Assembly: GCF_030418305.1 (NCBI RefSeq)
Contig: NZ_JAUHPX010000009.1
Coordinates: 1 to 64,000 of the forward strand
Direction: 5' to 3'
DNA: 64,000 nt
From: Demequina lignilytica
Lineage (GTDB): Bacteria > Actinomycetota > Actinomycetes > Actinomycetales > Demequinaceae
This document shows, one piece after another, positions 2,964 through 63,327 of the stretch. Within the stretch, counting starts at the first letter, position 1. Every line of letters starts with the position of its first letter. The notes beneath the pieces were generated by a model. The model saw nothing but the letters and a program-made list of their open reading frames with translations. It searched no databases and was not told the origin of the DNA. The position numbers and the translations under genes were made by a program.

Positions 2964-3826
2964 GTCGCCGGATCCTGATCGTGCCCAACCCGCATCGTCC
3001 CGAGACGCTCGAGGCGGCGACCGTCGCCAAGGCCGCCCTGCGGGAGACCGGGGTCGGCGTCTGCGCCGACTTCCACGCCGACACCGACGAGCCGATCGAC
3101 GCCGCGCTCGTGCTCGGCGGCGACGGGACGATGCTGCACGCGGCGGACATGACGCGTGGTACCGGCATCCCGCTGCTCGGGGTGAACCTGGGGAGGGTGG
3201 GATTCCTCGCCGAGCTCGAGCGTGACGATGTCGCGACGGCGGCGGTGCGTCTCGCCGAGGGCGACTACTCGGTCGAGGAGCGCGGCACGATCGACGTGGT
3301 GGTCACCGAGCGCGACGGCGGGGTCAGCACCGGGTGGGCGCTCAACGAGGCGACGATCGAGCGCGCCAACCTGCGCACCACGGTCGAGGTCGGGCTCGAC
3401 ATCGATGGACGGCCCTTGTCCACCTTCGGCTGCGACGGCGTGGTGATCGCCACCTCCACCGGCTCGACCGCGCATGCCTTCAGCGCGGGTGGTCCGGTGC
3501 TCTGGCCCGAGGTGGACGCCCTGCTGGTCGTCCCCCTGGCGGCACACGCGCTGTTCGCGCGCCCGCTCGTGATCGGCCCGTCCTCGAGCGTGACGGTGGA
3601 GATCCTGGAACGGTCGGCGAGCACGGCGCAGGTGGTGCTCGACGGCGCCCGGGCGATCGACGTCGCCCGCGGCGGTCGGGTCGAGGTGCGTCGAGGCGCG
3701 GAGCCGGTCCGCCTCGCCCGCATGCTCGACGCCCCGTTCAGCGAGCGCCTGGTGAAGAAGTTCTCCCTGCCCGTCGACGGCTTCCGCGGGACCCGCGACG
3801 TCGAGGGATGGGCCGCGGGGATCTGA
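2960..3826 (+). CDS. nadK: NAD kinase
   Basis: 288 aa, GTG start inside the end of tlyA. It phosphorylates NAD+ to NADP+ with ATP or polyphosphate in the cytosol. The diagnostic GGDGTM motif is at about residues 53-58 (VLGGDGTMLHAAD), the NE motif is in ALNEATIER, and the Gly-rich C-domain contains CDGVVIATSTGSTAH. Length is normal for actinobacterial PpnK. Its stop shares one base with the ATG of recN (TGATG), so nadK and recN are translationally coupled. Order tlyA-nadK-recN is the standard actinobacterial one. Confidence 0.96.
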   Translation: MSRRILIVPNPHRPETLEAATVAKAALRETGVGVCADFHADTDEPIDAALVLGGDGTMLHAADMTRGTGIPLLGVNLGRVGFLAELERDDVATAAVRLAEGDYSVEERGTIDVVVTERDGGVSTGWALNEATIERANLRTTVEVGLDIDGRPLSTFGCDGVVIATSTGSTAHAFSAGGPVLWPEVDALLVVPLAAHALFARPLVIGPSSSVTVEILERSASTAQVVLDGARAIDVARGGRVEVRRGAEPVRLARMLDAPFSERLVKKFSLPVDGFRGTRDVEGWAAGI

Positions 3827-12088: not shown

Positions 12089-12093
12089 GGGCG

Positions 12094-12104
12094 GGACGAT
12101 GCGG
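12094..12104 (+). repeat. Exact copy of dispersed 11-mer GGACGATGCGG (intergenic)
   Basis: One of 15 exact copies of this 11-mer in the window. This one lies in the ctaA-sufR promoter gap, just upstream of the ctaA -10, so it is not explained by codon use. Confidence 0.7.
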
Positions 12105-17865: not shown

Positions 17866-18347
17866 GCTCTCTCGAGCAGATGTACCAGCAGGTCATCATG
17901 GACCACGCCCGCGCCGCGCATGGCCGCGGCCTGGTTCAGGTCGACCTGCCCGCCCACGGCGAGTCGCACCAGGTCAACACGACCTGCGGAGACGAGGTCA
18001 CCCTGCGGGTGGGCCTCGAGGGCGACACGATCGCGTCGCTCTCCTGGGAGGGCCAGGGCTGCTCGATCTCGCAGGCGTCGATCTCTGTGCTCGCCGAGCT
18101 CCTCGACGGCGAGTCGCTCGAGACGGCCGATGAGACCTACGAGGCGTTCCGTGCCCTGATGCAGGCGAAGGGCGAGCCGCTGGACGACGATCGCGAGGAC
18201 ATGCTGGGCGACGCGACCGCGTTCGTCGGTGTCGGCAAGTACCCTGCACGCATCAAGTGCGCGCTCCTGGGCTGGGTGGCCCTCAAGGACGCGCTCATCC
18301 AGGCGAGGGGCGCATCGTCCTCCGCCACGGAAGGAGACAAGGCATGA
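17862..18347 (+). CDS. sufU: SufU, zinc-dependent sulfurtransferase
   Basis: 161 aa. It accepts persulfide sulfur from SufS and passes it to the SufBCD scaffold. The conserved zinc ligands and active cysteines are C42 (NTTCGDE, with D44), C67 (GQGCSIS) and C133 (RIKCALLGW). The insert characteristic of SufU relative to IscU is present around residues 85-115. The tail SSSATEGDKA contains the dispersed 9-mer core GCATCGTCC at 18312-18320. It overlaps sufT by 4 bp. Confidence 0.95.
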   Translation: MSSLEQMYQQVIMDHARAAHGRGLVQVDLPAHGESHQVNTTCGDEVTLRVGLEGDTIASLSWEGQGCSISQASISVLAELLDGESLETADETYEAFRALMQAKGEPLDDDREDMLGDATAFVGVGKYPARIKCALLGWVALKDALIQARGASSSATEGDKA

Positions 18348-20655: not shown

Positions 20656-21552
20656 TCAGCCGTCCGTGACGCCGAACGCGTCGCACGCGGCGAGGGTGCC
20701 GTTGCGATAGCCGGCCGCGAACGCGTCGGCGCGCTGCTCGGCGCTGCCGTGCGTGAAGGTGTGCGGGTCCGCCTCGCCGCCCGAGGCCTCCTGGATGCGG
20801 TCGTCGCCCACCGCCGCGGCGGCGGAGAGCGCGTCGTCGAGGTCCTGCTGCGTGAGAGGCGCGAGGTACGGGGTGCCCGACGCGTCCGGCACGGTGGCCG
20901 CGTGCCCCGCCCACACCCCCGCGAGGCAGTCGGCCATCAGCTCGACCTTGACGGAGTCGGAGTCCTCGCCGGTGCCCGTCCGGTCGGCGACGTCGAACAC
21001 GCCCACGAGGTTCTCGATGTGGTGACCGTACTCGTGCGCCATCACGTACATCTCCGCGAGCGGGCCGCCGCTCGCGCCGAAGTCGGTCGCGAGCACGTCG
21101 AAGAAGCTCACGTCCAGGTAGATGGTCTGGTCGGGCGGGCAGTAGAACGGCCCCGTGGCGGACGATGCGGTGCCGCAGCCTGACTGCGTGGCCTGGTCGA
21201 ACAGGACGATGCCGGGGTAGGCGAAGTCGACGCCCGCGGCGGGCAGCGCCTCGGCCCAGTACGCGTCGAGCGAGTTCACCGTGCCGACCATGCGGCAGTC
21301 GGTGTAGTCGTTGGCGTCGGCGCCCGTCTGGCAGCGGTCGGCGAGGTCCTGCTGCGCGGTGTCGTCGACGGGGGCGCTGCCGGTGCCGCCCATGAGCGCG
21401 CCCAGGTCGCTCGGGTTGCCGCCCAGGAACATGTACAGCAGCACGATCGCGAGGCCCCCGATGCCGCCTCCGATCGCGAGCCCGCCCTTGGCGCTCCGTC
21501 CGCGCGAGCCGACGCGGCCGGGATCGAGCCGAGAGCCCTCGTTGAACGTCAT
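20656..21552 (-). CDS. Membrane-anchored neutral zinc metallopeptidase (YpfJ family)
   Basis: 298 aa. One membrane anchor (GLAIGGGIGGLAIVLLYMFLGG, residues ~25-45) precedes a domain outside the membrane with the zinc motif HEYGHH and a downstream Glu in ELMADCLAGVWAGH. Length and the N-terminal FNEGSRLDPGRV match the PF04228 family, in which the peptidase activity is predicted rather than proven. A -10 TAGCGT lies at 21575-21580 on the minus strand and GGAGGTGG precedes the ATG, so this gene has a normal leader, unlike many neighbours. The gene carries the dispersed 11-mer at 21160 and a core copy at 21204. Confidence 0.9.
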   Translation of the reverse strand: MTFNEGSRLDPGRVGSRGRSAKGGLAIGGGIGGLAIVLLYMFLGGNPSDLGALMGGTGSAPVDDTAQQDLADRCQTGADANDYTDCRMVGTVNSLDAYWAEALPAAGVDFAYPGIVLFDQATQSGCGTASSATGPFYCPPDQTIYLDVSFFDVLATDFGASGGPLAEMYVMAHEYGHHIENLVGVFDVADRTGTGEDSDSVKVELMADCLAGVWAGHAATVPDASGTPYLAPLTQQDLDDALSAAAAVGDDRIQEASGGEADPHTFTHGSAEQRADAFAAGYRNGTLAACDAFGVTDG

Positions 21553-21634: not shown

Positions 21635-22582
21635 CTAGCGCAGCCCGCGACGGCGCTGGCGGCGCGAGGGCAGCCCCACGATGTCCTCGAAGGACGTGCC
21701 GGTGCTGTCGGCAGGGTCCTCCGCGACCTCGGGCTCGGCGGGGTCGTCTGACGCCTCCGGCTCGGGGGCGGCGTCCGTCACGGGCTCGGGCTCGTCCGTG
21801 GGCTCGGGCGCCGCGACCGCGGCGTCGGCGTCCTCCGCGACCACCGCATCGTCCTGCTGCCGGACCTCGATCTCGCCCGACGCCTCGCGGACGGGCGGCT
21901 CCGCGAGGCCGCGGGCGGCGAGCGCGTCGTGCCGGATGTCCGACTCGGCGACCTCGCGCTCGATGCGCTTGGTGCGCCCGTGCTCGGCGATGCCGCGCGC
22001 GTGCAGGGCCTGCCCCAGCTGCAGGGCGAAGCCGACGGTGCGGGACGCCGAGGGGATGAGGATCGCGCGCAGGTTGCGGTCCATGCCGCGGGCGCGGGCG
22101 GCGACGCGCGCCTCGACCAGGATGCGCGCGGCCTCCGGGATCGCGCGCAGGGCGAGCGCGACCATGAGGCCCAGCGTCTCGGGCGGCAGGATCCACCGCA
22201 GCGGCTTCGCGAGGGTGACGACGAGGTCCATCATCGCCTCCATCGAGGTCGACGAGGTGATCGCGAGCGCCAGCGCCGAGATCGCGATCAGATCGCCCGC
22301 GAGGTCGAGCGCGCGGACGTAGTCGCCCAGCCAGATCTGGAAACCGGCCGTCAGGATCGCGACCACCGTGATCGCGAGCATGCCCTTGAGGGTCGCCTTG
22401 AGCGGGGGCTTGGTCGACGCGAGCAGCAGGAGGCACGCGGCGGTGATGCCGATGCTCGTGACCGGGTCCGAGATCACCATGCAGCTGATGGTGATCCCCA
22501 GCAGGAAGAGCATCTTGGCCCACGCCGGGGTCAGATGCATCGGCGTGCGTCGGGGTCGGTAGAGCCCGAGCAGCGAGATCAC
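21635..22582 (-). CDS. bioN: ECF transporter T component with acidic C-terminal tail
   Basis: 315 aa, GTG start overlapping the ecfA stop by 4 bp. Five or so membrane helices and the coupling motifs with Ala-Arg-Gly (EARVAARARGMDRN and QALHARGIAEHG) identify an energy-coupling EcfT protein that links the ATPase to the substrate-binding S component. After about residue 205 it continues with a long extension rich in Glu, Asp, Pro and Ala, ending SRRQRRRGLR. EcfT proteins usually end soon after the coupling helices, so this ~100-residue tail is unusual. With bioY nearby the substrate is probably biotin; the symbol is given on that basis. Confidence 0.85.
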   Translation of the reverse strand: MISLLGLYRPRRTPMHLTPAWAKMLFLLGITISCMVISDPVTSIGITAACLLLLASTKPPLKATLKGMLAITVVAILTAGFQIWLGDYVRALDLAGDLIAISALALAITSSTSMEAMMDLVVTLAKPLRWILPPETLGLMVALALRAIPEAARILVEARVAARARGMDRNLRAILIPSASRTVGFALQLGQALHARGIAEHGRTKRIEREVAESDIRHDALAARGLAEPPVREASGEIEVRQQDDAVVAEDADAAVAAPEPTDEPEPVTDAAPEPEASDDPAEPEVAEDPADSTGTSFEDIVGLPSRRQRRRGLR

Positions 22583-27588: not shown

Positions 27589-28443
27589 TCAGGCTATGCC
27601 GTCCGGCCCCTGCAGCGCGTCCTCGATCTCCTCGTCGGACGGACCCGACCGACGGCGCGGCGCCCGCCGCACCCGAGACGCGGTGGCGACCGGAGCGCCG
27701 TCGCCGGACAGCGTCCACTCGCGTCGCGCCAGCAGGACGCCGCCGACCGGTGCGATGACGGCGAAGGCGAACCACTGCCACGTGTACGCGAGATGCGGAC
27801 CCAGGCTCAGCTCGGGCAGCGGCACCTGCCCGGCGCCGTAGTGATCGACGCAGCCGTCGTCCGCGCACGCCTCGCGGAGCACGGCGTACGCGTCGTACGG
27901 GTCGCCGGCGGGGGCGGGCACCTGGGTCGGGACGATGCGGGTGGCGCCCGAGTCGCGGCGCCCGTCGTCGGCCTCGAACGCACGGGCGACCGCGGTCACC
28001 GTGACGGACCCGTCGGGCAGGGCGGGCGCCGCCAGGTCCTCGGTGGGGCCGGGCACCGGCACGTAGCCGAGGTTGACCAGCAGCGAGCGTCCGTCGTCGG
28101 TGTCGAGCCACACGAGCAGCTGGTACACGCGCTCGCGGTCGATCGGCCGGTTGCGCAGGAGCGTGAGGGAGGCGGTGTCGAAGGTGCCCGTCGCTGTGAT
28201 CCGGCGCCATTCGTCGTCGGCGAGGGAGCCGTCGGACGCCGCCTCGGACGCCGCGACCGGCGCGAGCTGCGAGTTCTCGTCGAACAGCGCGATCGCGGTC
28301 GCTCTCGCCTCGTGGCGGCCCAGCTGCCAGAACCCCGCCCGGACCGCGACGGCCGAGATCAGCAGGGATGCCAGGACGATCGCGACCACCACCAGAGCCC
28401 GGCGCGCGCGCGAACGCGTCGGAACGGCGGGGGAGTCGGGCAC
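27589..28443 (-). CDS. SURF1-family cytochrome oxidase assembly protein
   Basis: 284 aa from GTG 28443. Two membrane helices flank a domain outside the membrane: ALVVVAIVLASLLISAVAVRAGFWQLGRH near residues 15-42 (in parts) and YTWQWFAFAVIAPVGGVLLARRE near 235. FWQLGRHEAR and LLVNLGYVPVPG are typical SURF1 signatures. SURF1 helps insert heme A into cytochrome aa3 oxidase, which links it to ctaA at 11.2 kb. A -10 TAGCAT exactly 7 nt before the GTG fixes the start as leaderless. The 11-mer GGACGATGCGG lies inside it at 27930. Confidence 0.9.
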   Translation of the reverse strand: MPDSPAVPTRSRARRALVVVAIVLASLLISAVAVRAGFWQLGRHEARATAIALFDENSQLAPVAASEAASDGSLADDEWRRITATGTFDTASLTLLRNRPIDRERVYQLLVWLDTDDGRSLLVNLGYVPVPGPTEDLAAPALPDGSVTVTAVARAFEADDGRRDSGATRIVPTQVPAPAGDPYDAYAVLREACADDGCVDHYGAGQVPLPELSLGPHLAYTWQWFAFAVIAPVGGVLLARREWTLSGDGAPVATASRVRRAPRRRSGPSDEEIEDALQGPDGIA

Positions 28444-29278: not shown

Positions 29279-29289
29279 CCGCATCGTCC
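29279..29289 (-). repeat. Exact copy of dispersed 11-mer (intergenic, fabG-fabI)
   Basis: CCGCATCGTCC on the plus strand, i.e. GGACGATGCGG on the minus strand, fills a third of the 33-bp gap between two co-oriented genes and lies just before the fabI ribosome-binding site. Confidence 0.7.
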
Positions 29290-29307
29290 CCCTCTAGGAG
29301 CACACTC

Positions 29308-30592: not shown

Positions 30593-31545
30593 GCGCTCCG
30601 CTCGACTCGATCGACACGGGAGCGCTCTGGCGCGCGCTGCTGTCGATGCAGCGGTTCGCCTGGGAGCAGGGCGTCGCGTCGCACGCCGCGATCGACGCAG
30701 GCGACCTCGACCTGGCCCGGCTGCTCGCGCGCGACGCGGTAGCGCGTGCCGACGCGGACGGTCAGCTGGGCGGGATGGACGATGCGGGTGCCGTCAACTC
30801 CGGCGCCCTTCTCGAGGCGGCGCTGCTGCTCGGGCGTGACGATCCGGCGGCGGCCGCGGCGGCGCAGCGGCAGCGCTGGTGGCTGCTGCGGTTCTCGCCG
30901 CGCGACGACTGGGGCGTGCTGCACCATCTGCGCGGCTCCTCCGAGGTGTGGGCCGACTCCGTGTACATGGTGGTGCCCGCGCTGGTCGCCTCCGGGGACC
31001 TCGCGCCCGCCGACATGCAGTACCGGATGCACCGCGAGCAGCTATGGGACCAGGCCAGCGGGCTCTACCGGCACCGCTTCGACATGGCGTCCCGCGCGTT
31101 CACGCGGGACGCCCTCTGGGCGAGCGGCAACGGCTGGGTCGCCGCCGGCCTGGCGCGGGCGCTCCACCTGGGCGTCGACGCCGACACGGTGCGTGAGCGC
31201 TGGGAACGGGAGACGCGGGAGCTGATCGATGCGTGCGCGGCGGTCGCGTCCGTCGACGGCCGCTTCCACGACGTGCTCGACGACCCCTCGACGTTCACGG
31301 ATGGCTGCGCCGGGCTGATGCTCGCGTACGCCGCGTTCACGGGCGTCGCCGACGGGTGGCTCCCGGCGGAGTACGCCGAGGCGGGGGAGCGGTGGGCCGC
31401 GGCCGCCCTGACCCGCACCGACGACGCCGGCCTCGTCCGAGACGTCTGCGGCGCGCCGTCGTTCGACGCGCCAGGCACCAGCGCGGAGGCGCAGGCGTTC
31501 GCGGTCCTCGCGCTCAGCGCGAGGGCGCGGGCCCGGGCGGCCTGA
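30589..31545 (+). CDS. GH88/GH105-type glycoside hydrolase family protein
   Basis: 318 aa, GTG start overlapping the SixA gene. The all-helical (alpha/alpha)6-barrel pattern and the motif DALWASGNGWVAAGLARAL match unsaturated rhamnogalacturonyl/glucuronyl hydrolases (PF07470), in which the Gly-Asn-Gly-Trp stretch lines the active site. FTDGCAGLMLAYA near residue 240 is also family-like. No signal peptide is seen, so the substrate would be an imported disaccharide, but no pectin genes are nearby. The 11-mer GGACGATGCGG lies at 30777 and encodes MDDAGAV at the candidate catalytic Asp region. Confidence 0.78.
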   Translation: MSAPLDSIDTGALWRALLSMQRFAWEQGVASHAAIDAGDLDLARLLARDAVARADADGQLGGMDDAGAVNSGALLEAALLLGRDDPAAAAAAQRQRWWLLRFSPRDDWGVLHHLRGSSEVWADSVYMVVPALVASGDLAPADMQYRMHREQLWDQASGLYRHRFDMASRAFTRDALWASGNGWVAAGLARALHLGVDADTVRERWERETRELIDACAAVASVDGRFHDVLDDPSTFTDGCAGLMLAYAAFTGVADGWLPAEYAEAGERWAAAALTRTDDAGLVRDVCGAPSFDAPGTSAEAQAFAVLALSARARARAA

Positions 31546-31549
31546 ACGC

Positions 31550-31560
31550 CCGCATCGTCC
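31550..31560 (-). repeat. Exact copy of dispersed 11-mer in an 18-bp convergent gap
   Basis: CCGCATCGTCC occupies most of the 18 bp between the stop codons of the GH105-like gene and serB. It is non-coding on both sides. Confidence 0.7.
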
Positions 31561-38352: not shown

Positions 38353-39153
38353 ATGCCCGTGATCACCGTCACCGACCCCGCGGATCCCCGCCTCGCCGAC
38401 TACCGCGACCTCACCGACGTGGCGCTGCGCCGCGCGCTCGAGCCCGCGCGCGGGCTGTACATGGCCGAGGGGGCCAAGGTGATCTCTCGGGCCGTGGCGG
38501 CGGGGCATCGTCCCCGGTCGGTCCTGGTCAGCGAGCGATGGCTCGACTCCGTCGCCTCGAGCGTGGACGGCGACGTGCCGGTCTATCTCGGGCCCGCGAC
38601 GCTCCTCGAGGCCGTCACGGGCTACCAGGTGCACCGGGGGGCGTTGGCCTCGATGGAGCGACCGGCGCTGCCGGCCCTCGCGGACCTCGCGCGGGACGCT
38701 CGGCGGATCGTGGTCCTCGAGGGGATCGTCGACCACACCAACGTGGGGGCGATCTTCCGCTCCGCCGCGGGTGTCGGAGCCGACGCCGTGATCGTGTCGC
38801 CCACGTGCGCCGATCCCCTGTACCGCCGGTCGGTCAAGGTGTCGATGGGTACCGTCTTCCAGGTCCCCTGGACCCGCGCCGAGTCCTGGCCCGGGTCTCT
38901 CGACGTGCTGCGCGAGCTCGGCTTCCAGGTCGCGGGCCTGGCGCTCAGGGACGATGCGGTGCCGCTGGACGAGTTCGCGGCGCGCGCCGGTGAGCGGGTC
39001 GCGATCGTGATGGGGACCGAGGGCGACGGGCTGACACGGGAGGCCCTCGCGCACGTGGACCACGCCGTGGTGATCCCCATGCACGGGGGAGTGGACTCGC
39101 TCAACGTCGCCGCCGCCTCGGCGGTAGCCATGTGGGAGCTGCGCGTCCGCTGA
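38353..39153 (+). CDS. TrmH/SpoU-family RNA 2'-O-methyltransferase
   Basis: 266 aa. An N-terminal substrate-binding region (ARGLYMAEGAKVISRAV) precedes the trefoil-knot SpoU domain with its three motifs: VDHTNVGAIFRSAAG, VIVMGTEGDGLT and IPMHGGVDSLNVAAASAVA. It transfers methyl to a ribose 2'-OH of rRNA or tRNA; the target nucleotide cannot be read from sequence. A GATGAT hexamer lies 6 nt before the ATG, a weak version of the leaderless spacing seen elsewhere. It carries motif copies at 38505 (core) and 38949 (exact 11-mer). Confidence 0.92.
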   Translation: MPVITVTDPADPRLADYRDLTDVALRRALEPARGLYMAEGAKVISRAVAAGHRPRSVLVSERWLDSVASSVDGDVPVYLGPATLLEAVTGYQVHRGALASMERPALPALADLARDARRIVVLEGIVDHTNVGAIFRSAAGVGADAVIVSPTCADPLYRRSVKVSMGTVFQVPWTRAESWPGSLDVLRELGFQVAGLALRDDAVPLDEFAARAGERVAIVMGTEGDGLTREALAHVDHAVVIPMHGGVDSLNVAAASAVAMWELRVR

Positions 39154-39156
39154 CGG

Positions 39157-41871
39157 CTACCCGACCTCCGCCGTGGTGAGGTGCGTGATCGGGTCGTAGG
39201 TGAACGTCACGGTCGCGGGCGCGTCGAGCTCCAGCACCATGTTCGGGCCGTCGCCGACGCCGCCGTCGCCGTAGTTCTCGTCCCACGCGCCGTCGATCGC
39301 GACCTTGTACTCGTGGCGGCCCGCAGGCAGGTCCACCGTGATGCGCCAGGTGGAGGCGGCCTCGTCGAACGTCATGACCGCGGCCTCGCAGTCGGGCTGC
39401 CACCACTCGGCGCAGCCCATCAGCTCGTTGAAGCTCCCGGGCAGCGACGGTGTGCCCGCGCCGGCGGAGCCCGCCGCCTTGAGGGCGAGCGTCGAGGACT
39501 CGACCGTCGCGGCGCCCTGCGTCGCCCGCGCGCGGTACAGCACGTCGGCTCCGGCCTCCACCGCCGCCAGGTCGTCCACCACGCCGTACACGGGAGCCGT
39601 GGTGTCGGTGCCCACCTCGGTCCACCCGCCGGAGCCGACCTTGCGCTCGATCACCACGGAGGTGTCCGCGCGGGCCGGGGCGACGGTGGCGCTGATCAGC
39701 GGGTCCACCCCGACGGAGTCTCCGGCCGCGAGGTCGAGCGTCACCGTCGGGTCGGGCACGGTCTGCACGACCGTGCCGCTGCGCGACTCGTGCCCGAGCC
39801 CGTCGGACGCCACCGCGACGTACTCGACCTCCTCGCCCGGCGCGAGGTCCGAGACCACGTCCATCACCTGGTACGGCGCCGCATCGTCCGTGCCCAGGTG
39901 CTCCCAGGACCCTCCCGCCGCACGCGCCCAGAAGGACACCTCGGCGTAGCAGTCGCAGTCGACGCTCGCGCTCGCTCCGAGCCGTCCGGGGTCGCTCTCA
40001 CCGGCGGTCTCCACCGCGCCCGCCGCGAGCGTGACGCCGATGTCGGAGCCCTCCACCATCGTGGAATCGGCCTGATAGACCAGCGTCCCGAACGCGGGAA
40101 CCGTCACCATGACCACGCCCTCGTCGTCGGCGACCACCGCATCGTCCCCCTCGCCGACGAGGCGGGTGAAGCCGCCTCGCGTCCACGTCGGGATCTCGAC
40201 GGCCCGCGGCTCGGCCGCGCTGTTGACGGCCACCACGACCTCGCGGCGCTCCTCGCGGTCGATCCGGGAGAACGCGTAGACGCCGCGGGCGTCCTCCGCG
40301 ACGCGGGTGATCTGCGCGCCGGTCGTGAGCGCGGGCGTGGACGTGCGCAGCGCGGACAGCTCGGCGATCCACCGGTAGAGGGGCTGCGCGGTGTCGAGGA
40401 CGGGGTCGGCGAGCGTGGCGCTCGATCCGATCAGCGTGTCGTCCAGGTACTCCGGGATGGAGGTGCCGAACAGGGGCTGGCGTGCGGCCTTGTCACCGCC
40501 CTCGCCCGTGAGGCCCTGCTCGTCGCCGTAGTAGACGATCGGGTTGCCGCGGGACAGGAGGAGCAGCGCGTGCGCGAGCTCGTCGCGCGCGAGCAGCTCG
40601 GCGGCGTCGGCCGCGGGATTGTCCTCGAGCAGCATCGATCCGAAGCGGCCCATGTCGTGGTTGCCCAGGAAGGTCGGGAGCTGGGTCGCGCTCGAGTCCG
40701 CGTCGGTGTACCAGTCGTCGGCGGCGAAGAACGTGGCGAGGTCCGTCGCCCGGCCGCTTCCGGACGCGAACGCGCGGGCCGCGCCCTGGAACGGGAAGTC
40801 GAGCACCGCCTGCAGCCCCACCTCGGTGGTGTATCGGGAGGTGAAGGCGCGGGAGCCGTCGTAGACCTCGCCGAACACGAAGAAGTCGTCCTTGCCCTTG
40901 TCCCGGGCGGCCTCGAGCACGCCGGGGATGAAGGACTCCCAGAAGGCGTCGTCGACGTGGCGGACGGTGTCGATGCGGTAGCCGTCGATGCCCGCGTCGA
41001 TCCAGTCGGCGTAGATCGCTGTCATGCCGTCGACCACCTGGGGATTCTCGGTCCAGAGGTCGTCGAGCCCGAAGAAGTCGCCGTACTGAGAGTCCTCGCC
41101 GGTGAAGGTGGTGTTGCCGCGGTTGTGATACATCGTGACGTCGTTGAGCCAGGCCGGGGACTTGGCCTCCTCCTCGCCCGCGGCGAGCACGGGCGCATGG
41201 GGGAAGGACGATGCGGTGACCTCCGGGAAGCCGCCGGTCGCCGCCGCCGCGGTGTCGTCGAACGCCTCGCCGTCCGCATCGACGTACGGCTGCGCGTCCT
41301 TCGCGACGTAGGGGAGGCGGTCGCCGCCCTCGTATCCGATCACGTCCGCGGTGTGGTTGGTGATGATGTCGAGGAAGACCTTCATGCCGCGCTCGTGCGC
41401 GGCGTCGACCAGGCTGTCGAGGGCCTCGTCCCCGCCCAGGTGCGGGTCGACCGAGGTGAAGTCGGTGATCCAGTAGCCGTGGTAGCCGGCGGAGGAGTCC
41501 TCGGGCTGGACCGCCTTGTTGGTGAGCACCGGTGAGATCCACACGCCGGTGACGCCGAGGCCCTGGAGGTAGTCGAGCTGCTGCTCGACCCCCGCGAGGT
41601 CGCCTCCCTGGTAGAAGCCCGCGTCGGTCGGGTCGAAGCCGCTCACCAGCGGGTCGTCGCCCAGGCCGCCGGTGTTGTTCCCGGGGTCGCCGTCCGCGAA
41701 GCGGTCGGCCATGAGGAAGTAGAGCACCTGGTCGGACGACGCGGCGCGCGCCGGGGCGACCGCGTGCGGGCTCTCGCCGCGGGTGGCGAGGTGGACGGCG
41801 ACGGCGGCGCCGGCGAGCAGGAGCGCGGCGGCGGCGCCGCCGATCCAACGGGTGCGGGTGGACATCGTCAT
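39157..41871 (-). CDS. Secreted GH13 alpha-amylase with C-terminal X25-like domain
   Basis: 904 aa. A signal peptide (residues ~1-45, WIGGAAAALLLAGAAVAVHLA, cleavage near ARAASS) leads into a GH13 barrel with all four conserved regions: FLDIITNHTADV, GIDGYRIDTVRHVD (nucleophile Asp), FFVFGEVYD (acid Glu) and FLGNHDMGRFG. After the beta-sheet domain come two Fn3/Ig-like segments and, near residues 815-885, a module with GCAEWWQPDCEAAVM and HEYKVAIDGAWDENYGDGG that matches the X25 domain of bacterial pullulanases. It should cleave external starch or alpha-glucan. AGGAGG lies 8 nt before the ATG. Three exact copies of the 11-mer lie within it. Confidence 0.9.
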   Translation of the reverse strand: MTMSTRTRWIGGAAAALLLAGAAVAVHLATRGESPHAVAPARAASSDQVLYFLMADRFADGDPGNNTGGLGDDPLVSGFDPTDAGFYQGGDLAGVEQQLDYLQGLGVTGVWISPVLTNKAVQPEDSSAGYHGYWITDFTSVDPHLGGDEALDSLVDAAHERGMKVFLDIITNHTADVIGYEGGDRLPYVAKDAQPYVDADGEAFDDTAAAATGGFPEVTASSFPHAPVLAAGEEEAKSPAWLNDVTMYHNRGNTTFTGEDSQYGDFFGLDDLWTENPQVVDGMTAIYADWIDAGIDGYRIDTVRHVDDAFWESFIPGVLEAARDKGKDDFFVFGEVYDGSRAFTSRYTTEVGLQAVLDFPFQGAARAFASGSGRATDLATFFAADDWYTDADSSATQLPTFLGNHDMGRFGSMLLEDNPAADAAELLARDELAHALLLLSRGNPIVYYGDEQGLTGEGGDKAARQPLFGTSIPEYLDDTLIGSSATLADPVLDTAQPLYRWIAELSALRTSTPALTTGAQITRVAEDARGVYAFSRIDREERREVVVAVNSAAEPRAVEIPTWTRGGFTRLVGEGDDAVVADDEGVVMVTVPAFGTLVYQADSTMVEGSDIGVTLAAGAVETAGESDPGRLGASASVDCDCYAEVSFWARAAGGSWEHLGTDDAAPYQVMDVVSDLAPGEEVEYVAVASDGLGHESRSGTVVQTVPDPTVTLDLAAGDSVGVDPLISATVAPARADTSVVIERKVGSGGWTEVGTDTTAPVYGVVDDLAAVEAGADVLYRARATQGAATVESSTLALKAAGSAGAGTPSLPGSFNELMGCAEWWQPDCEAAVMTFDEAASTWRITVDLPAGRHEYKVAIDGAWDENYGDGGVGDGPNMVLELDAPATVTFTYDPITHLTTAEVG

Positions 41872-53561: not shown

Positions 53562-54860
53562 ATGACCGAGTCCGACGTGGTGCGCCTCGCACGAGACCTC
53601 ATCCGCATCGACACCTCCAACTACGGTGACGTCGACGGCCCGGGGGAGAGGGCCGCGGCCGAGTACGTCGCCGCCTACCTGTCCGACCTCGGGCTCGAGC
53701 CCGTGATTCGCGAGTCCGAGCCGGGCCGCGCGAGCCTCACCGCGCTGTGGGAGGGCTCCGACCGCACGCGTCCGCCGCTGGTCCTGCACGGACACCTCGA
53801 CGTGGTGCCGGCGTTCCGGGAGGACTGGACCGTCGAGCCCTTCGCGGCGGAGGTCAAGGACGGCATGATCTGGGGCCGCGGCGCGGTCGACATGAAGGGC
53901 GTCGACGCGATGTACCTGGCCGCGATCGGCCGGATGATCCGCGCCGGCGCGAAGCCGGCCCGCGACATCGTCATCGCGTTCTTCGCGGACGAGGAGCATG
54001 GCGGCCACCGGGGCGCGAAGTGGATGGTGCAGCATCACCCCGACGACTTCCGCGGGGCCACCGAGGCGGTCTCCGAGGTCGGCGGCTTCTCGATCCAGGT
54101 GGGGGACCGGCGCGTCTACCTGTTCCAGACCGGCGAGAAGGGCATGCAGTGGGTGCGCCTCGCCGCGACCGGCGTGCAGGGGCACGGCTCGCTGGTGCAC
54201 CGGGACAACGCCGTCGCGCACCTCGCCGGCGCCATGCACCGGATCGGTCAGCATGTCTGGCCCATGGAGATCACGCCGCCGGTCGAGACCCTGCTGCGCG
54301 GCATCGCCGACATCCTCGGCATCGACTACGCCGAGGACCCTGAGACGGTCGACCGGATCGTCGCCGGCATGGGGGCCGTCGGGCGGATGGTCGAGGCGTC
54401 GCTCAGGAACACCTCGAACCCGACCATGCTGGACGCGGGCTACAAGGTCAACGTGATCCCCGACACCGCCGGCGGCTTCGTGGACTCGCGCTTCCTCCAC
54501 GGTCAGCAGGAGCAGGTCCTGCGCAAGCTCGAGGAGCTCGCCGGCACCGACGTCAAGGTCGAGCCGTACATCCTCGAGCAGTCCATCGAGCTGCCCTTCG
54601 ACGCGCCGCTGGTCCATAAGGCGATCGCGGCGATCAAGGCGGACGACCCGGACGCCGTGGTGCTTCCGTACTCGATGATGGGCGGCACCGACAACAAGCA
54701 CCTCGCGACGATTGGGATCGCCGGCTACGGCTTCGCGCCCCTGCGGCTGCCTCCCGAGCTCGACTTCCCCGGGCTCTTCCATGGCATCGACGAGCGCGTG
54801 CCGCTCGACTCGCTCGAGTTCGGCACCGATGTCATGGTGCGCTTCCTCGCCGACTGCTGA
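53562..54860 (+). CDS. M20/M25/M40 family metallopeptidase
   Basis: 432 aa cytosolic zinc peptidase. Metal-binding and catalytic motifs: LVLHGHLDVVPA (His and Asp), IWGRGAVDMKG (bridging Asp), FFADEEHGG (catalytic Glu pair) and the late FHGIDERVPLDSLEFG (His). The dimerisation domain lies between ~200 and 320. It is related to dipeptidase/acylase proteins such as Rv2141c; the natural substrate cannot be set. It converges on the DUF5703 gene across a motif hairpin. Confidence 0.92.
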   Translation: MTESDVVRLARDLIRIDTSNYGDVDGPGERAAAEYVAAYLSDLGLEPVIRESEPGRASLTALWEGSDRTRPPLVLHGHLDVVPAFREDWTVEPFAAEVKDGMIWGRGAVDMKGVDAMYLAAIGRMIRAGAKPARDIVIAFFADEEHGGHRGAKWMVQHHPDDFRGATEAVSEVGGFSIQVGDRRVYLFQTGEKGMQWVRLAATGVQGHGSLVHRDNAVAHLAGAMHRIGQHVWPMEITPPVETLLRGIADILGIDYAEDPETVDRIVAGMGAVGRMVEASLRNTSNPTMLDAGYKVNVIPDTAGGFVDSRFLHGQQEQVLRKLEELAGTDVKVEPYILEQSIELPFDAPLVHKAIAAIKADDPDAVVLPYSMMGGTDNKHLATIGIAGYGFAPLRLPPELDFPGLFHGIDERVPLDSLEFGTDVMVRFLADC

Positions 54861-54862
54861 CG

Positions 54863-54888
54863 CGCATCGTCCCGGCGGGGACGATGCG
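54863..54888. terminator. Terminator-like hairpin formed by a head-to-head motif pair
   Basis: CGCATCGTCCC (54863-54873) and GGGACGATGCG (54878-54888) form a perfect 11-bp stem with a GGCG loop. The right arm is part of an exact GGACGATGCGG at 54879-54889 and the left arm is the inverted core. It fills the 44-bp gap between the convergent M20 and DUF5703 genes, where a bidirectional terminator is expected. Confidence 0.75.
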
Positions 54889-54904
54889 GCGCCGGGGCCG
54901 CGCG

Positions 54905-55162
54905 TCAGGCCGCGTCGTCGGTGCGACGCACGTTCATCACCCGGCGGCGCAGCCACACCCGGCGCGCGCCACCGTAGAACAGCTGCGACCTCACCAGGTC
55001 CCAGCGGCCGTACTCCGCCTGCTCGGTGAGGACCGCGCGCGCCTCCGACCGCGACACGTCGCGCGCGATGTCGACCACGCGCCACTCGTAGCGGCTGTCG
55101 GCGGATGCGGTGCCCCGGGTCGGGACCACCACGTGGGCGGGGACGTGCTGACCAGGATTCAT
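54905..55162 (-). CDS. DUF5703 family small protein
   Basis: 85 aa. The conserved part is YEWRVVDIARDVSRSEARAV, LTEQAEYGRWDL and YGGARRVWLRRRVMNVRR, which matches the small actinobacterial DUF5703 family. It is basic at the C-terminus and has no membrane helix. GGGAGG sits 4 nt before the ATG at 55162, so the ATG four codons upstream is less likely. Function is unknown. It is divergent from the acidic 96-aa protein 43 bp away. Confidence 0.88.
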   Translation of the reverse strand: MNPGQHVPAHVVVPTRGTASADSRYEWRVVDIARDVSRSEARAVLTEQAEYGRWDLVRSQLFYGGARRVWLRRRVMNVRRTDDAA

Positions 55163-57660: not shown

Positions 57661-58527
57661 TCAGGCCTTGCCGTTGCCGCTGTCGCGGCGGCGCAGGAAC
57701 TTCTCGAACTCCGCGGCGATCGCGTCGCCCGAGGCCTCCGGCAGGCTGGTCTCGTCCATCAGCGACTCGAGCTGCTGGACATGCGCGGCGATCTCCTCGT
57801 CCTCCTCGGCGAGCTCGTCGGCTCCGCGCTGCCACGCGTCGACCTCGTCGACCATCTCGCCCAGATCGATCGGCTCGCCCAGGAAGCGCTCGAGCTGCGA
57901 GAGGATCGACACCGTCGCCTTCGGGCTCGGCGGGTGCGCGACGTAGTGCGGCACCCCGACCCAGACCGAGATGACCGTGATGCCGCGCAGGCTCGCCTCG
58001 TGCCCGAGCACCCCGAGCACGCCGGTCGGTCCCTCGTAGTCGGACCGCTCGAGGTCGAACGCCTGGCGCGCGGCCGCGTCCTCGCTGGTGACGAAGGTCG
58101 GCAGCGGTCGCGTGTGCGGCGCGTCGACCAGCAGCGCGCCGCAGGTGATGAGGGTCGAGACCTCGAGGTCCTCCGCGTAGTCGAGGATCTCCCGGCAGAA
58201 GGTGCGCCAGCGCATCGAGGGCTCGATGCCGCGCACGACCACCACCTCGCGGTCGCCCACCCACGGCCCGTTCGCGGTCGACAGCACCGTTCCCGGCCAC
58301 GAGACCACGCGCTCCCCGCCCGGCAGGGTCTGGATCGAGGGCCGGCTCACCTGGAAGTCGTGGTACTCCTCCGGGTCGAGAGTCGCGTACTCGCGGGCCT
58401 CCCACGCGCGGGCCAGGTGGTCGAGCGCGGACGATGCGGCGGAGCCGGCGTCGTTCCAGCCCTCGAAGGCCGCGATCATCACGGACTGGTCGGCGGCCAG
58501 GGAGACGGGGTCGCTGTCGGGGCTCAT
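57661..58527 (-). CDS. PAC2-family protein
   Basis: 288 aa. PAC2 features: MIAAFEGWNDAGSAASSALDHL at the N-terminus, VVVVRGIEPSMRWRTF, LITCGALLVDAPHTRP and the late EYVPVPHYVAHPPSP-type segment SVWVGVPHYVAHPPSPKA. Archaeal and eukaryotic relatives act as proteasome assembly chaperones. In actinobacteria the role is unproven, but a proteasome ATPase gene lies 5 kb away in this window. The C-terminus is helical and acidic. The ATG has a -10 TAGGCT 6 nt upstream. The 11-mer lies at 58429. Confidence 0.92.
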   Translation of the reverse strand: MSPDSDPVSLAADQSVMIAAFEGWNDAGSAASSALDHLARAWEAREYATLDPEEYHDFQVSRPSIQTLPGGERVVSWPGTVLSTANGPWVGDREVVVVRGIEPSMRWRTFCREILDYAEDLEVSTLITCGALLVDAPHTRPLPTFVTSEDAAARQAFDLERSDYEGPTGVLGVLGHEASLRGITVISVWVGVPHYVAHPPSPKATVSILSQLERFLGEPIDLGEMVDEVDAWQRGADELAEEDEEIAAHVQQLESLMDETSLPEASGDAIAAEFEKFLRRRDSGNGKA

Positions 58528-58551: not shown

Positions 58552-59241
58552 ATGAATGAGAAGGCGACTCTCCCTGCCGCGGTCCTGTGGGACATGGACG
58601 GCACCCTGATCGACTCGGAGCCGTACTGGATCTCGGCCGAGATCGAGCTCACCCGCAGCTTCGGCGTCGAGTGGACGCACGAGGACGGGCTGACCCTGGT
58701 CGGCAAGCCGCTGCTGTACTCGGCAGAGCTGTTCCGGGAGCGCGGGGTCGATCTGGACCCCGAGGACATCATCGACTTCCTCATCGAGCGGGTGACGGCG
58801 CAGGTGCGGCGCGAGACGCCCTGGATGGACGATGCGCGGGCGCTGCTCGACTCCGTGGTCGCCGCGGGCATCCCGTGCGCCCTGGTGACGATGTCCTACT
58901 CGCGCCTGGCCGATGCCGTGGTGTCGCGGGTGCCCGACGCCTTCGCGGTGGTGGTCACCGGCGACCAGGTGACCCACGGCAAGCCCCATCCGGAGGCGTA
59001 CCTCACGGCGGCGCAGCGGCTGGGCGTCCCGATCGAGCGCTGCGTCGCGATCGAGGACTCGCCGTCCGGCGTCGGCTCCGCGTACACGGCCGGCGCGACC
59101 ACCCTCGGCGTGCGCCGGCTCGCCCCCCTCGAGGCGCGCCCGGGCCTGTCGCGGGTGCGGTCGCTCGACGGGATGACGGCCGGGACGCTGGCGCGTCTGC
59201 TCGCGGGCGACGTGATCGACGAGCTCGGCGACGAGGTCTGA
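58552..59241 (+). CDS. HAD-superfamily phosphatase (beta-phosphoglucomutase-like)
   Basis: 229 aa. Nucleophile motif LWDMDGTLIDSEPYW (D14, D16), a helical cap, LVTMSYS and the late GKPHPEAYLTAAQRLG plus AIEDSPSGVGSAYTAG acid motif define subfamily IA-v3. Members act on small phosphorylated metabolites; the substrate is unknown. Start set by the leaderless -10 at 58538. It is followed after 4 bp by the sulfotransferase gene. Confidence 0.92.
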   Translation: MNEKATLPAAVLWDMDGTLIDSEPYWISAEIELTRSFGVEWTHEDGLTLVGKPLLYSAELFRERGVDLDPEDIIDFLIERVTAQVRRETPWMDDARALLDSVVAAGIPCALVTMSYSRLADAVVSRVPDAFAVVVTGDQVTHGKPHPEAYLTAAQRLGVPIERCVAIEDSPSGVGSAYTAGATTLGVRRLAPLEARPGLSRVRSLDGMTAGTLARLLAGDVIDELGDEV

Positions 59242-62304: not shown

Positions 62305-63327
62305 ATGACCCATCCTTCCGAGCCCGCCGGCGCGTCCGAGCGCAGGGGCCCGCTGCGCGCGGGGGACCGCGTCCAGCTGACCGACGTCAAGGGCCGCCAC
62401 CACACGATCGTCCTCACGCCGGGCAAGCAGTTCCACACCCACCGCGGGATGTTCCACCACGACGACGTCATCGGTCGCCCCGAGGGCACCGTGGTGACGA
62501 ACACCGCCGGCTTCGACTACCTGGTCCTGCGTCCGCTGCTCAGCGACTTCGTGCTCTCCATGCCGCGCGGCGCCGCCGTCGTGTACCCGAAGGATGCCGG
62601 CCAGATCATCCAGATGGCAGACATCTACCCGGGCGCGCGCGTCGTGGAGGCGGGCGTCGGGTCCGGCGGGCTGACCATGTCGCTGCTGCGCGCGGTGGGC
62701 GACGGGGGCCGGCTGGTGTCGATCGAGCGCCGCGAGGACTTCGCGGACATCGCCCGCGCGAACGTCGAGTCGCACTTCGGCGGCCCGCACCCCGCGTGGC
62801 GCCTCGAGATCGGCGACTTCGCCGACCGCGTCGGCGACGCCTTCGAGCCCGGCACGGTCGACCGCATCGTCCTCGACATGCTGGCCCCGTGGGAGAACCT
62901 CGAGGCGGCGGCGGCGGCGCTGGCCCCGGGCGGCGTCCTGCTCGCGTACGTGGCCACCACCACGCAGCTCTCGCGTCTGGCGGAGGACCTGCGCGAGCAT
63001 GGCGGCTTCACCGAGCCCCGCGCGTGGGAGACGATGCTGCGGACGTGGCATCTCGAGGGGCTCGCCGTGCGTCCCGACCACCGTATGGTGGGGCACACCG
63101 GCTTCCTGCTCACCACGCGCCGCATGGCGCCGGGCGTCGACGCGCCTCGGCGCACCCGCCGTCCCGCCAAGGGCGCCTACCCGGTCGACGGCGAATGGGA
63201 GCCCGAGGACCTGGGGGAGCGTCCGGTGAGCGACAAGAAGGTGCGCAAGGTCCGTCGCGACGCGGTCGCGGCGGCCGCGCTGCACCACGCAGCCGACGGC
63301 GCGGCGGACGATGCGGGGGAGGAGTGA
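62305..63327 (+). CDS. trmI: tRNA (adenine-58-N1)-methyltransferase TrmI
   Basis: 340 aa. It makes m1A58 in the T-loop of tRNAs. An N-terminal beta-barrel (GDRVQLTDVKGRHHTIVL, HTHRGMFHHDDVIG) precedes the Rossmann domain with VVEAGVGSGGLTMSLLRAVG, DRIVLDMLAPWENL and the usual PNxxQ-like strand. The last ~60 residues are a charged extension rich in Arg, Lys and Asp, carrying the 11-mer at 63306. It is the gene directly before the proteasome ATPase, as Rv2118c is near Rv2115c. Confidence 0.94.
   Translation: MTHPSEPAGASERRGPLRAGDRVQLTDVKGRHHTIVLTPGKQFHTHRGMFHHDDVIGRPEGTVVTNTAGFDYLVLRPLLSDFVLSMPRGAAVVYPKDAGQIIQMADIYPGARVVEAGVGSGGLTMSLLRAVGDGGRLVSIERREDFADIARANVESHFGGPHPAWRLEIGDFADRVGDAFEPGTVDRIVLDMLAPWENLEAAAAALAPGGVLLAYVATTTQLSRLAEDLREHGGFTEPRAWETMLRTWHLEGLAVRPDHRMVGHTGFLLTTRRMAPGVDAPRRTRRPAKGAYPVDGEWEPEDLGERPVSDKKVRKVRRDAVAAAALHHAADGAADDAGEE

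Follow-up and report, generated by a model that had tools for sequence, protein, structure and literature searches.

A perfect hairpin between two convergent genes of Demequina lignilytica is probably formed by two copies, arranged head to head, of a motif that is specific to the genus and resembles DNA uptake sequences (consensus CCGCATCGTCC), for which we propose an uptake mechanism with competence, motif-dependent uptake, a receptor and termination as its putative elements. The hairpin is located at positions 54863-54888 of the window, i.e., the whole stretch of 64,000 nucleotides that was analysed, which represents contig C18 of a genome (G000) of 2.9 Mb in 18 contigs. The first-pass annotation had already read the motif as an uptake sequence, and its over-representation, strict core, dialects, lack of strand bias and the accompanying competence genes strongly support this reading at the level of sequence.

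According to the proposed mechanism, Demequina, which lives in soil and in the sea, would be naturally competent via a type IVa pilus, ComEA and ComEC, and a surface DNA receptor would bind the motif, resulting in the preferential uptake of DNA of the same kind. Copies would be born by point mutation and subsequently spread by uptake and recombination, thereby filling permissive places on both strands, namely intergenic DNA, gene ends and variable protein segments. A shift in the preference of the receptor would let the word of a genome drift to a new dialect, and two copies that face each other at gene ends would form a hairpin, which is perhaps used as a terminator.

According to a description from 2025, discrimination of incoming DNA by a short word is confined to two families, the Neisseriaceae and the Pasteurellaceae (PMC12616744). 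With somewhat better than even odds, Demequina harbors an uptake-sequence system of independent origin that comprises three or more dialect groups; it would be the third bacterial system of this kind, the first of a Gram-positive organism, and would employ a receptor unrelated to ComP. This receptor is possibly not a pilin, because the dialect remained unchanged when pilus genes were replaced, as described below. If true, self-recognition during uptake would have a third evolutionary origin, in a lineage that lacks an outer membrane, and an untested genus is predicted to be naturally competent. Moreover, dozens of species would allow comparative work on how dialects change, how receptors evolve and what limits the exchange of genes, and the words might become tools for the transformation of Demequina. 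The literature searched contained no report of competence or DNA uptake for Demequina, and likewise no report of uptake words in Actinobacteria, most subscription journals lying outside this search.

The hairpin and its surroundings

Inspection of the sequence revealed that positions 54863-54888 read CGCATCGTCCC-GGCG-GGGACGATGCG, a perfect inverted repeat. The left arm (54863-54873, plus strand) and the right arm (54878-54888, minus strand) are exact copies of the motif, separated by the GGCG loop at 54874-54877, which is also indicated by the RNA fold (-24.2 kcal/mol, z -4.3). The gene encoding an M20 peptidase (53562-54860, plus strand; open reading frame with a match to Pfam PF01546, E 4e-33) and the DUF5703 gene (54905-55162, minus strand; PF18963, E 2.7e-21; start codon uncertain) converge on the hairpin, which begins 2 bp past one stop codon and 16 bp past the other within the 44-bp gap that separates the ends of these genes (54860 and 54905). 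The sequence and the Pfam matches therefore agree with the perfect 11-bp stem and 4-nt loop in a 44-bp convergent gap that the first-pass annotation had described; the end given there, 54889, has to be moved to 54888. In addition, we observed an outer 8-bp inverted repeat (CTGACGCG / CGCGTCAG, 54856-54863 and 54901-54908) that encloses the hairpin and takes in both stop codons.

The window contains about six distinct perfect inverted repeats with arms of at least 11 bp and loops of 3-10 nucleotides, compared to 0.9 expected, and the one at 54863-54888 alone is built from the motif. Taken as a structure alone, the hairpin is thus unremarkable. It is missing from the orthologous M20/DUF5703 gap in other Demequina species, where one reverse copy of the motif is present in four species, one forward copy in two and none in the others, while the gap in D. 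phytophila harbors an unrelated short inverted repeat. The named relatives that come closest at the M20 locus belong to Demequina, with a protein identity of 82-88% for the nearest.

Abundance, core and dialects of the motif

The 11-mer CGCATCGTCCC occurs 472 times in the 2.9-Mb genome. Its letters read backwards are found nowhere in the genome, this control being itself a rare word in high-GC DNA. In an 864-kb sample evaluated against an order-4 Markov model, CCGCATCGTCC was observed 154 times versus 5.5 expected (28-fold) and CGCATCGTCCC 116 times versus 3.5 expected, which makes them the two most over-represented 11-mers of the sample with a 28-33-fold excess. The sample comprises about one third of the genome plus selected pieces, including five 20-kb pieces picked because they hold inverted pairs, and the gene calls derive from a simple codon-usage finder. 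Correspondingly, allowing for one mismatch, the window contains 32 matches versus 7.3 expected, a number that no shuffle reached. The core GCATCGTC is strict, as single-base variants of its inner positions occur at background level; the outer letters are free, and the upstream flank prefers C. In total, the genome contains about 870 copies, only a few dozen of which are paired, and the density of the 10-mer amounts to about 0.3 per kb. On contig C1, the 186 sites are spaced no more evenly than random sites would be (CV 1.12).

Besides the two arms, exact copies in the window are located at 2991-3001, 29280-29290 and 40138-40148 on the plus strand, the second of these a few bp past a stop codon, and at 12093-12103, 27929-27939 and 38948-38958 on the minus strand. 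Matches to the 10-mer core were found on the plus strand at 31551-31560 (CGCATCGTCC, in an 18-bp convergent gap), 18311-18320, 21845-21854, 39880-39889 and 62863-62872, and on the minus strand at 21160-21169, 30777-30786, 41206-41215, 58429-58438, 58827-58836 and 63306-63315.

Across the genus, the counts of the 11-mer are bimodal, with 315-884 copies in about 12 species (120 in G027) and 1-52 in the rest; genomes of other families contain 1-8 copies. Other Demequina species carry related words instead, such as CGCATCGGCC and AGCGTCGGGC. The word GCATCGGCC is abundant in species low in GCATCGTCC, reaching 2018 copies in G015, 1687 in G024, 1443 in G035 and 1253 in G014, compared to 134 in G026 and 181 in the genome of the window. 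Likewise, AGCGTCGGS is present in 1424 copies in G009, 713 in G003 and 530 in G012, versus about 110-200 in controls. Three dialect groups (A, B and C) with the common sequence GC[AG]TCG can thus be distinguished, the calls of some species resting on 40 kb of sequence. Genome G022 carries both A and B words. No clear word was detected in G001, though comEC and pilin genes are present; in this genome, which lacks the dialect, we observed two short tandem arrays (C1:3003501-3003562 and 77719-77782) with units of 17 bp and 27 bp that contain CGCATCGTCC.

A tree built from non-pilus genes places the genomes with dialect A in one clade with G022 as sister, and G004 represents a separate case of dialect A, suggesting that the dialects largely follow the core-gene tree. 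Outside Demequina, enrichment of CGCATCGKCC was not detected in any of 272 genomes of the order (297 surveyed; only Demequina enriched), one genome of another genus of the same family containing 72 copies.

Placement, pairing and origin of the copies

The motif is about fourfold denser in intergenic than in coding DNA (1.30 versus 0.32 per kb), and 76% of the copies lie in genes. Among the intergenic regions, convergent gaps are the densest (2.42 per kb), followed by co-directional (1.44) and divergent ones (0.81). Of five genomes tested with dialect B or C, each one showed the intergenic enrichment as well, and three a clear enrichment in convergent gaps. When six genomes were examined in 20-kb regions, the two orientations turned out to be about equally frequent (chi2 36.7 on 67 df); analysis by GC skew revealed no clear strand bias (131:113). 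This balance per 20-kb region is more even than chance, perhaps owing to the inverted pairs. Of 34 copies located within 60 bp past a stop codon, 27 are oriented like the gene (p 0.0008; contig C1 of the genome, the window and C2:1-20000); in the B and C genomes such an orientation is not clear (25:18).

Within genes, Asp-Asp-Ala is spelled GAC-GAT-GC 169 times versus 6 times GAT-GAC-GC (23 expected for each), and before residues other than Ala the two codon orders occur 35 and 33 times. Moreover, Ala-Ser-Ser is encoded by GCA-TCG-TCC 45 times, GCA accounting for 3% of the Ala codons. These codon controls demonstrate that selection acts on the DNA letters and not on the protein, which rules out a coding artefact. 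In 133 protein alignments with orthologs from other Demequina species, the residues encoded by the sites are gapless in 94%; gaps at site residues amount to 6.0% versus 0.4% at control positions. The nucleotide version of this alignment is noisier, with 98 of 133 gapless. Residue identity is 0.56 at the sites compared to 0.73 for their neighbours. The gapless alignments, together with the lower conservation, indicate that substitution at permissive positions is the main origin of the sites.

Pairs within 30 nucleotides of each other comprise 14 inward, 13 outward and 17 direct arrangements in the genome, whereas 3.8 inverted and 3.7 direct pairs are expected from a simulation in which the density is kept separately for coding DNA, gene ends and the remaining intergenic DNA. 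The further inverted pairs at gene ends that an uptake sequence led the first-pass annotation to anticipate are thus present, since 17 of the 27 inverted pairs lie at most 30 bp past a stop codon. Some direct pairs are likewise found there, which suggests that gene ends are permissive in general. The ratio of inverted to direct pairs (27:17) is not significant in this genome (p 0.17); in most A-dialect relatives inverted pairs clearly outnumber direct ones, e.g., 62:8 in G026 and 51:3 in G017, with G004, G022 and G029 as exceptions. G004 is also rich in direct pairs (78).

The first-pass annotation had assigned the hairpin a second use as a bidirectional terminator. Taken further, this would mean that the hairpin ends both convergent transcripts and that the motif is abundant because it supplies terminator arms, an explanation that we regard as quite unlikely, even though a stable hairpin follows both stop codons closely, most inverted pairs in this genome lie shortly past stops, and inverted pairs prevail over direct ones in most A-dialect genomes. 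The hairpin shares its GC-rich stem with intrinsic terminators; however, the T-run of the latter is absent here on either strand, and a terminator scan remained empty. Furthermore, none of the 29 perfect intergenic hairpins of contig C1 (arms of at least 9, loop 3-8) contains the motif, several single copies past stop codons stand beside a separate hairpin, the small number of paired copies contrasts with the three quarters that reside inside genes, and the same gap in other species lacks the hairpin. While the hairpin itself is confirmed, its use as a terminator has therefore become doubtful, and a general terminator role of the motif is unsupported by the C1 hairpins and by the single copies beside other hairpins. 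Actinobacterial terminators may function without a T-run, and termination is a possible local second use of this hairpin.

Among the explanations for the motif itself, a chromosome-maintenance site for recombination or segregation comparable to Chi or to the FtsK-orienting KOPS is very improbable. Like these sites, the motif is a short, asymmetric and species-specific word with hundreds of copies; Chi and KOPS sites, however, are strand-biased along the replichores, whereas the Demequina motif is balanced over 20-kb regions of the six genomes and favours intergenic DNA. The strand balance led us to reject this explanation. Abundance and restriction to a clade can also characterize binding sites of a nucleoid-associated or regulatory protein, or a word without an assigned role such as HIP1 of cyanobacteria, and the persistence of dialect A after an exchange of pilus genes would be compatible with a reader other than a pilin. 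This explanation nevertheless appears unlikely, as the core is far stricter than that of usual regulatory sites, the copies lie predominantly in genes and on both strands, the motif is not palindromic, and the turnover of dialects fits an uptake preference better. That codon usage or mutation bias in a genome with 72% GC, or a spreading repeat element, generated the copies can practically be dismissed. The sites in genes do show strong frame preferences, and their residues are more often gapped than the controls, but the mirror codon order is not enriched, one-base variants remain at background and the intergenic density is fourfold higher; the codon-usage artefact is rejected by the mirror-codon and one-base-variant controls. 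The 94% of gapless ortholog alignments indicate copies formed mainly by substitution, which argues against a spreading element and disfavours an insertion element. The uptake-sequence reading is the one that we prefer.

Known uptake systems and the competence genes of Demequina

On the present sequence evidence the motif appears to work like an uptake sequence, and would be a member of neither known family. It shares with uptake sequences the excess of copies, the strict core, the preference for non-coding DNA, the opposed pairs, the dialects, the origin by substitution and the presence of competence genes. As in the DUS of the Neisseriaceae, we find an asymmetric word of 10-12 letters with hundreds to thousands of copies, dialects that are a few bases apart and track the core phylogeny, an intergenic preference, inverted pairs at gene ends and a type IVa pilus (PMC3630211). 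In contrast to the DUS, which is recognized by the receptor ComP, the sequence is unrelated, with no CTG in the A, B or C core words on either strand; the host is a monoderm with high GC content, and the density of the motif is lower. The USS of the Pasteurellaceae likewise has a short strict core, a substitution origin, a preference for non-coding DNA and oppositely oriented pairs (PMC1626085), but its sequence is different. The USS core GCGG is present on the reverse strand of the dialect A consensus (GGACGATGCGG); it is not contained in the B and C consensus words with other 5′ letters, i.e., those of G015/G024 (GGCATCGGCC) and G009 (AGCGTCGGGC). An unusually strict core is a mark of USS and DUS, and a spacing more even than random is a published feature of both (PMC1626085). 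The Demequina motif differs in the latter, a descriptive trait that is not needed for function. Micrococcus luteus, a high-GC Gram-positive relative among the Actinobacteria, resembles Demequina in encoding ComEA/ComEC and in its pilus-dependent uptake; it differs by its Flp/Tad pili, and the available part of the respective reports does not mention an uptake word (PMC4322843, PMC6370729).

In the genome of the window, one cluster encodes PilB, PilT, PilC, PilM, the prepilin peptidase and three prepilins, and contains two more genes at the positions of pilN and pilO without a firm Pfam match. ComEA and ComEC are encoded away from this cluster. Type IV prepilins are present in 44 of 44 Demequina genomes. 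A search of 59 genomes for ComEC yielded matches in 57, and nearly all Demequina are among them. The presence of comEC in nearly all relatives renders it useless as a discriminator. Since type IV pilus and ComEA/ComEC genes are common in many bacteria without uptake words, such genes in general discriminate little. In G009 (C1:2039413-2040200) and G027 (C1:423579-424363), two neighbouring matches each cover a part of the ComEC competence domain, which suggests a frameshift or a sequencing error.

No ComP ortholog was identified in Demequina. Most species encode a lone PilA-like pilin, located at C12:43999 in G000, which by analogy with ComP is a candidate receptor; the matches of its profile in the PDB cover only the general N-terminus of pilins, and none of them is named ComP. 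The pilus cluster of G006 (Demequina sp. SYSU T00192) and G023 (D. rhizosphaerae) groups with B-dialect species, while their core (aro) genes group with the A clade and their dialect remains A, consistent with the cluster having apparently been replaced through horizontal transfer. The lone pilin of both genomes is also of a different type. An exchange of the pilus that leaves the dialect unchanged argues against a recognition of the word by the clustered pilins; correspondingly, neither the pilus cluster nor the lone pilin is supported as determinant of the dialect. The pilus cluster of G006 and G023 carries, in addition, a large pilin of about 610 amino acids.
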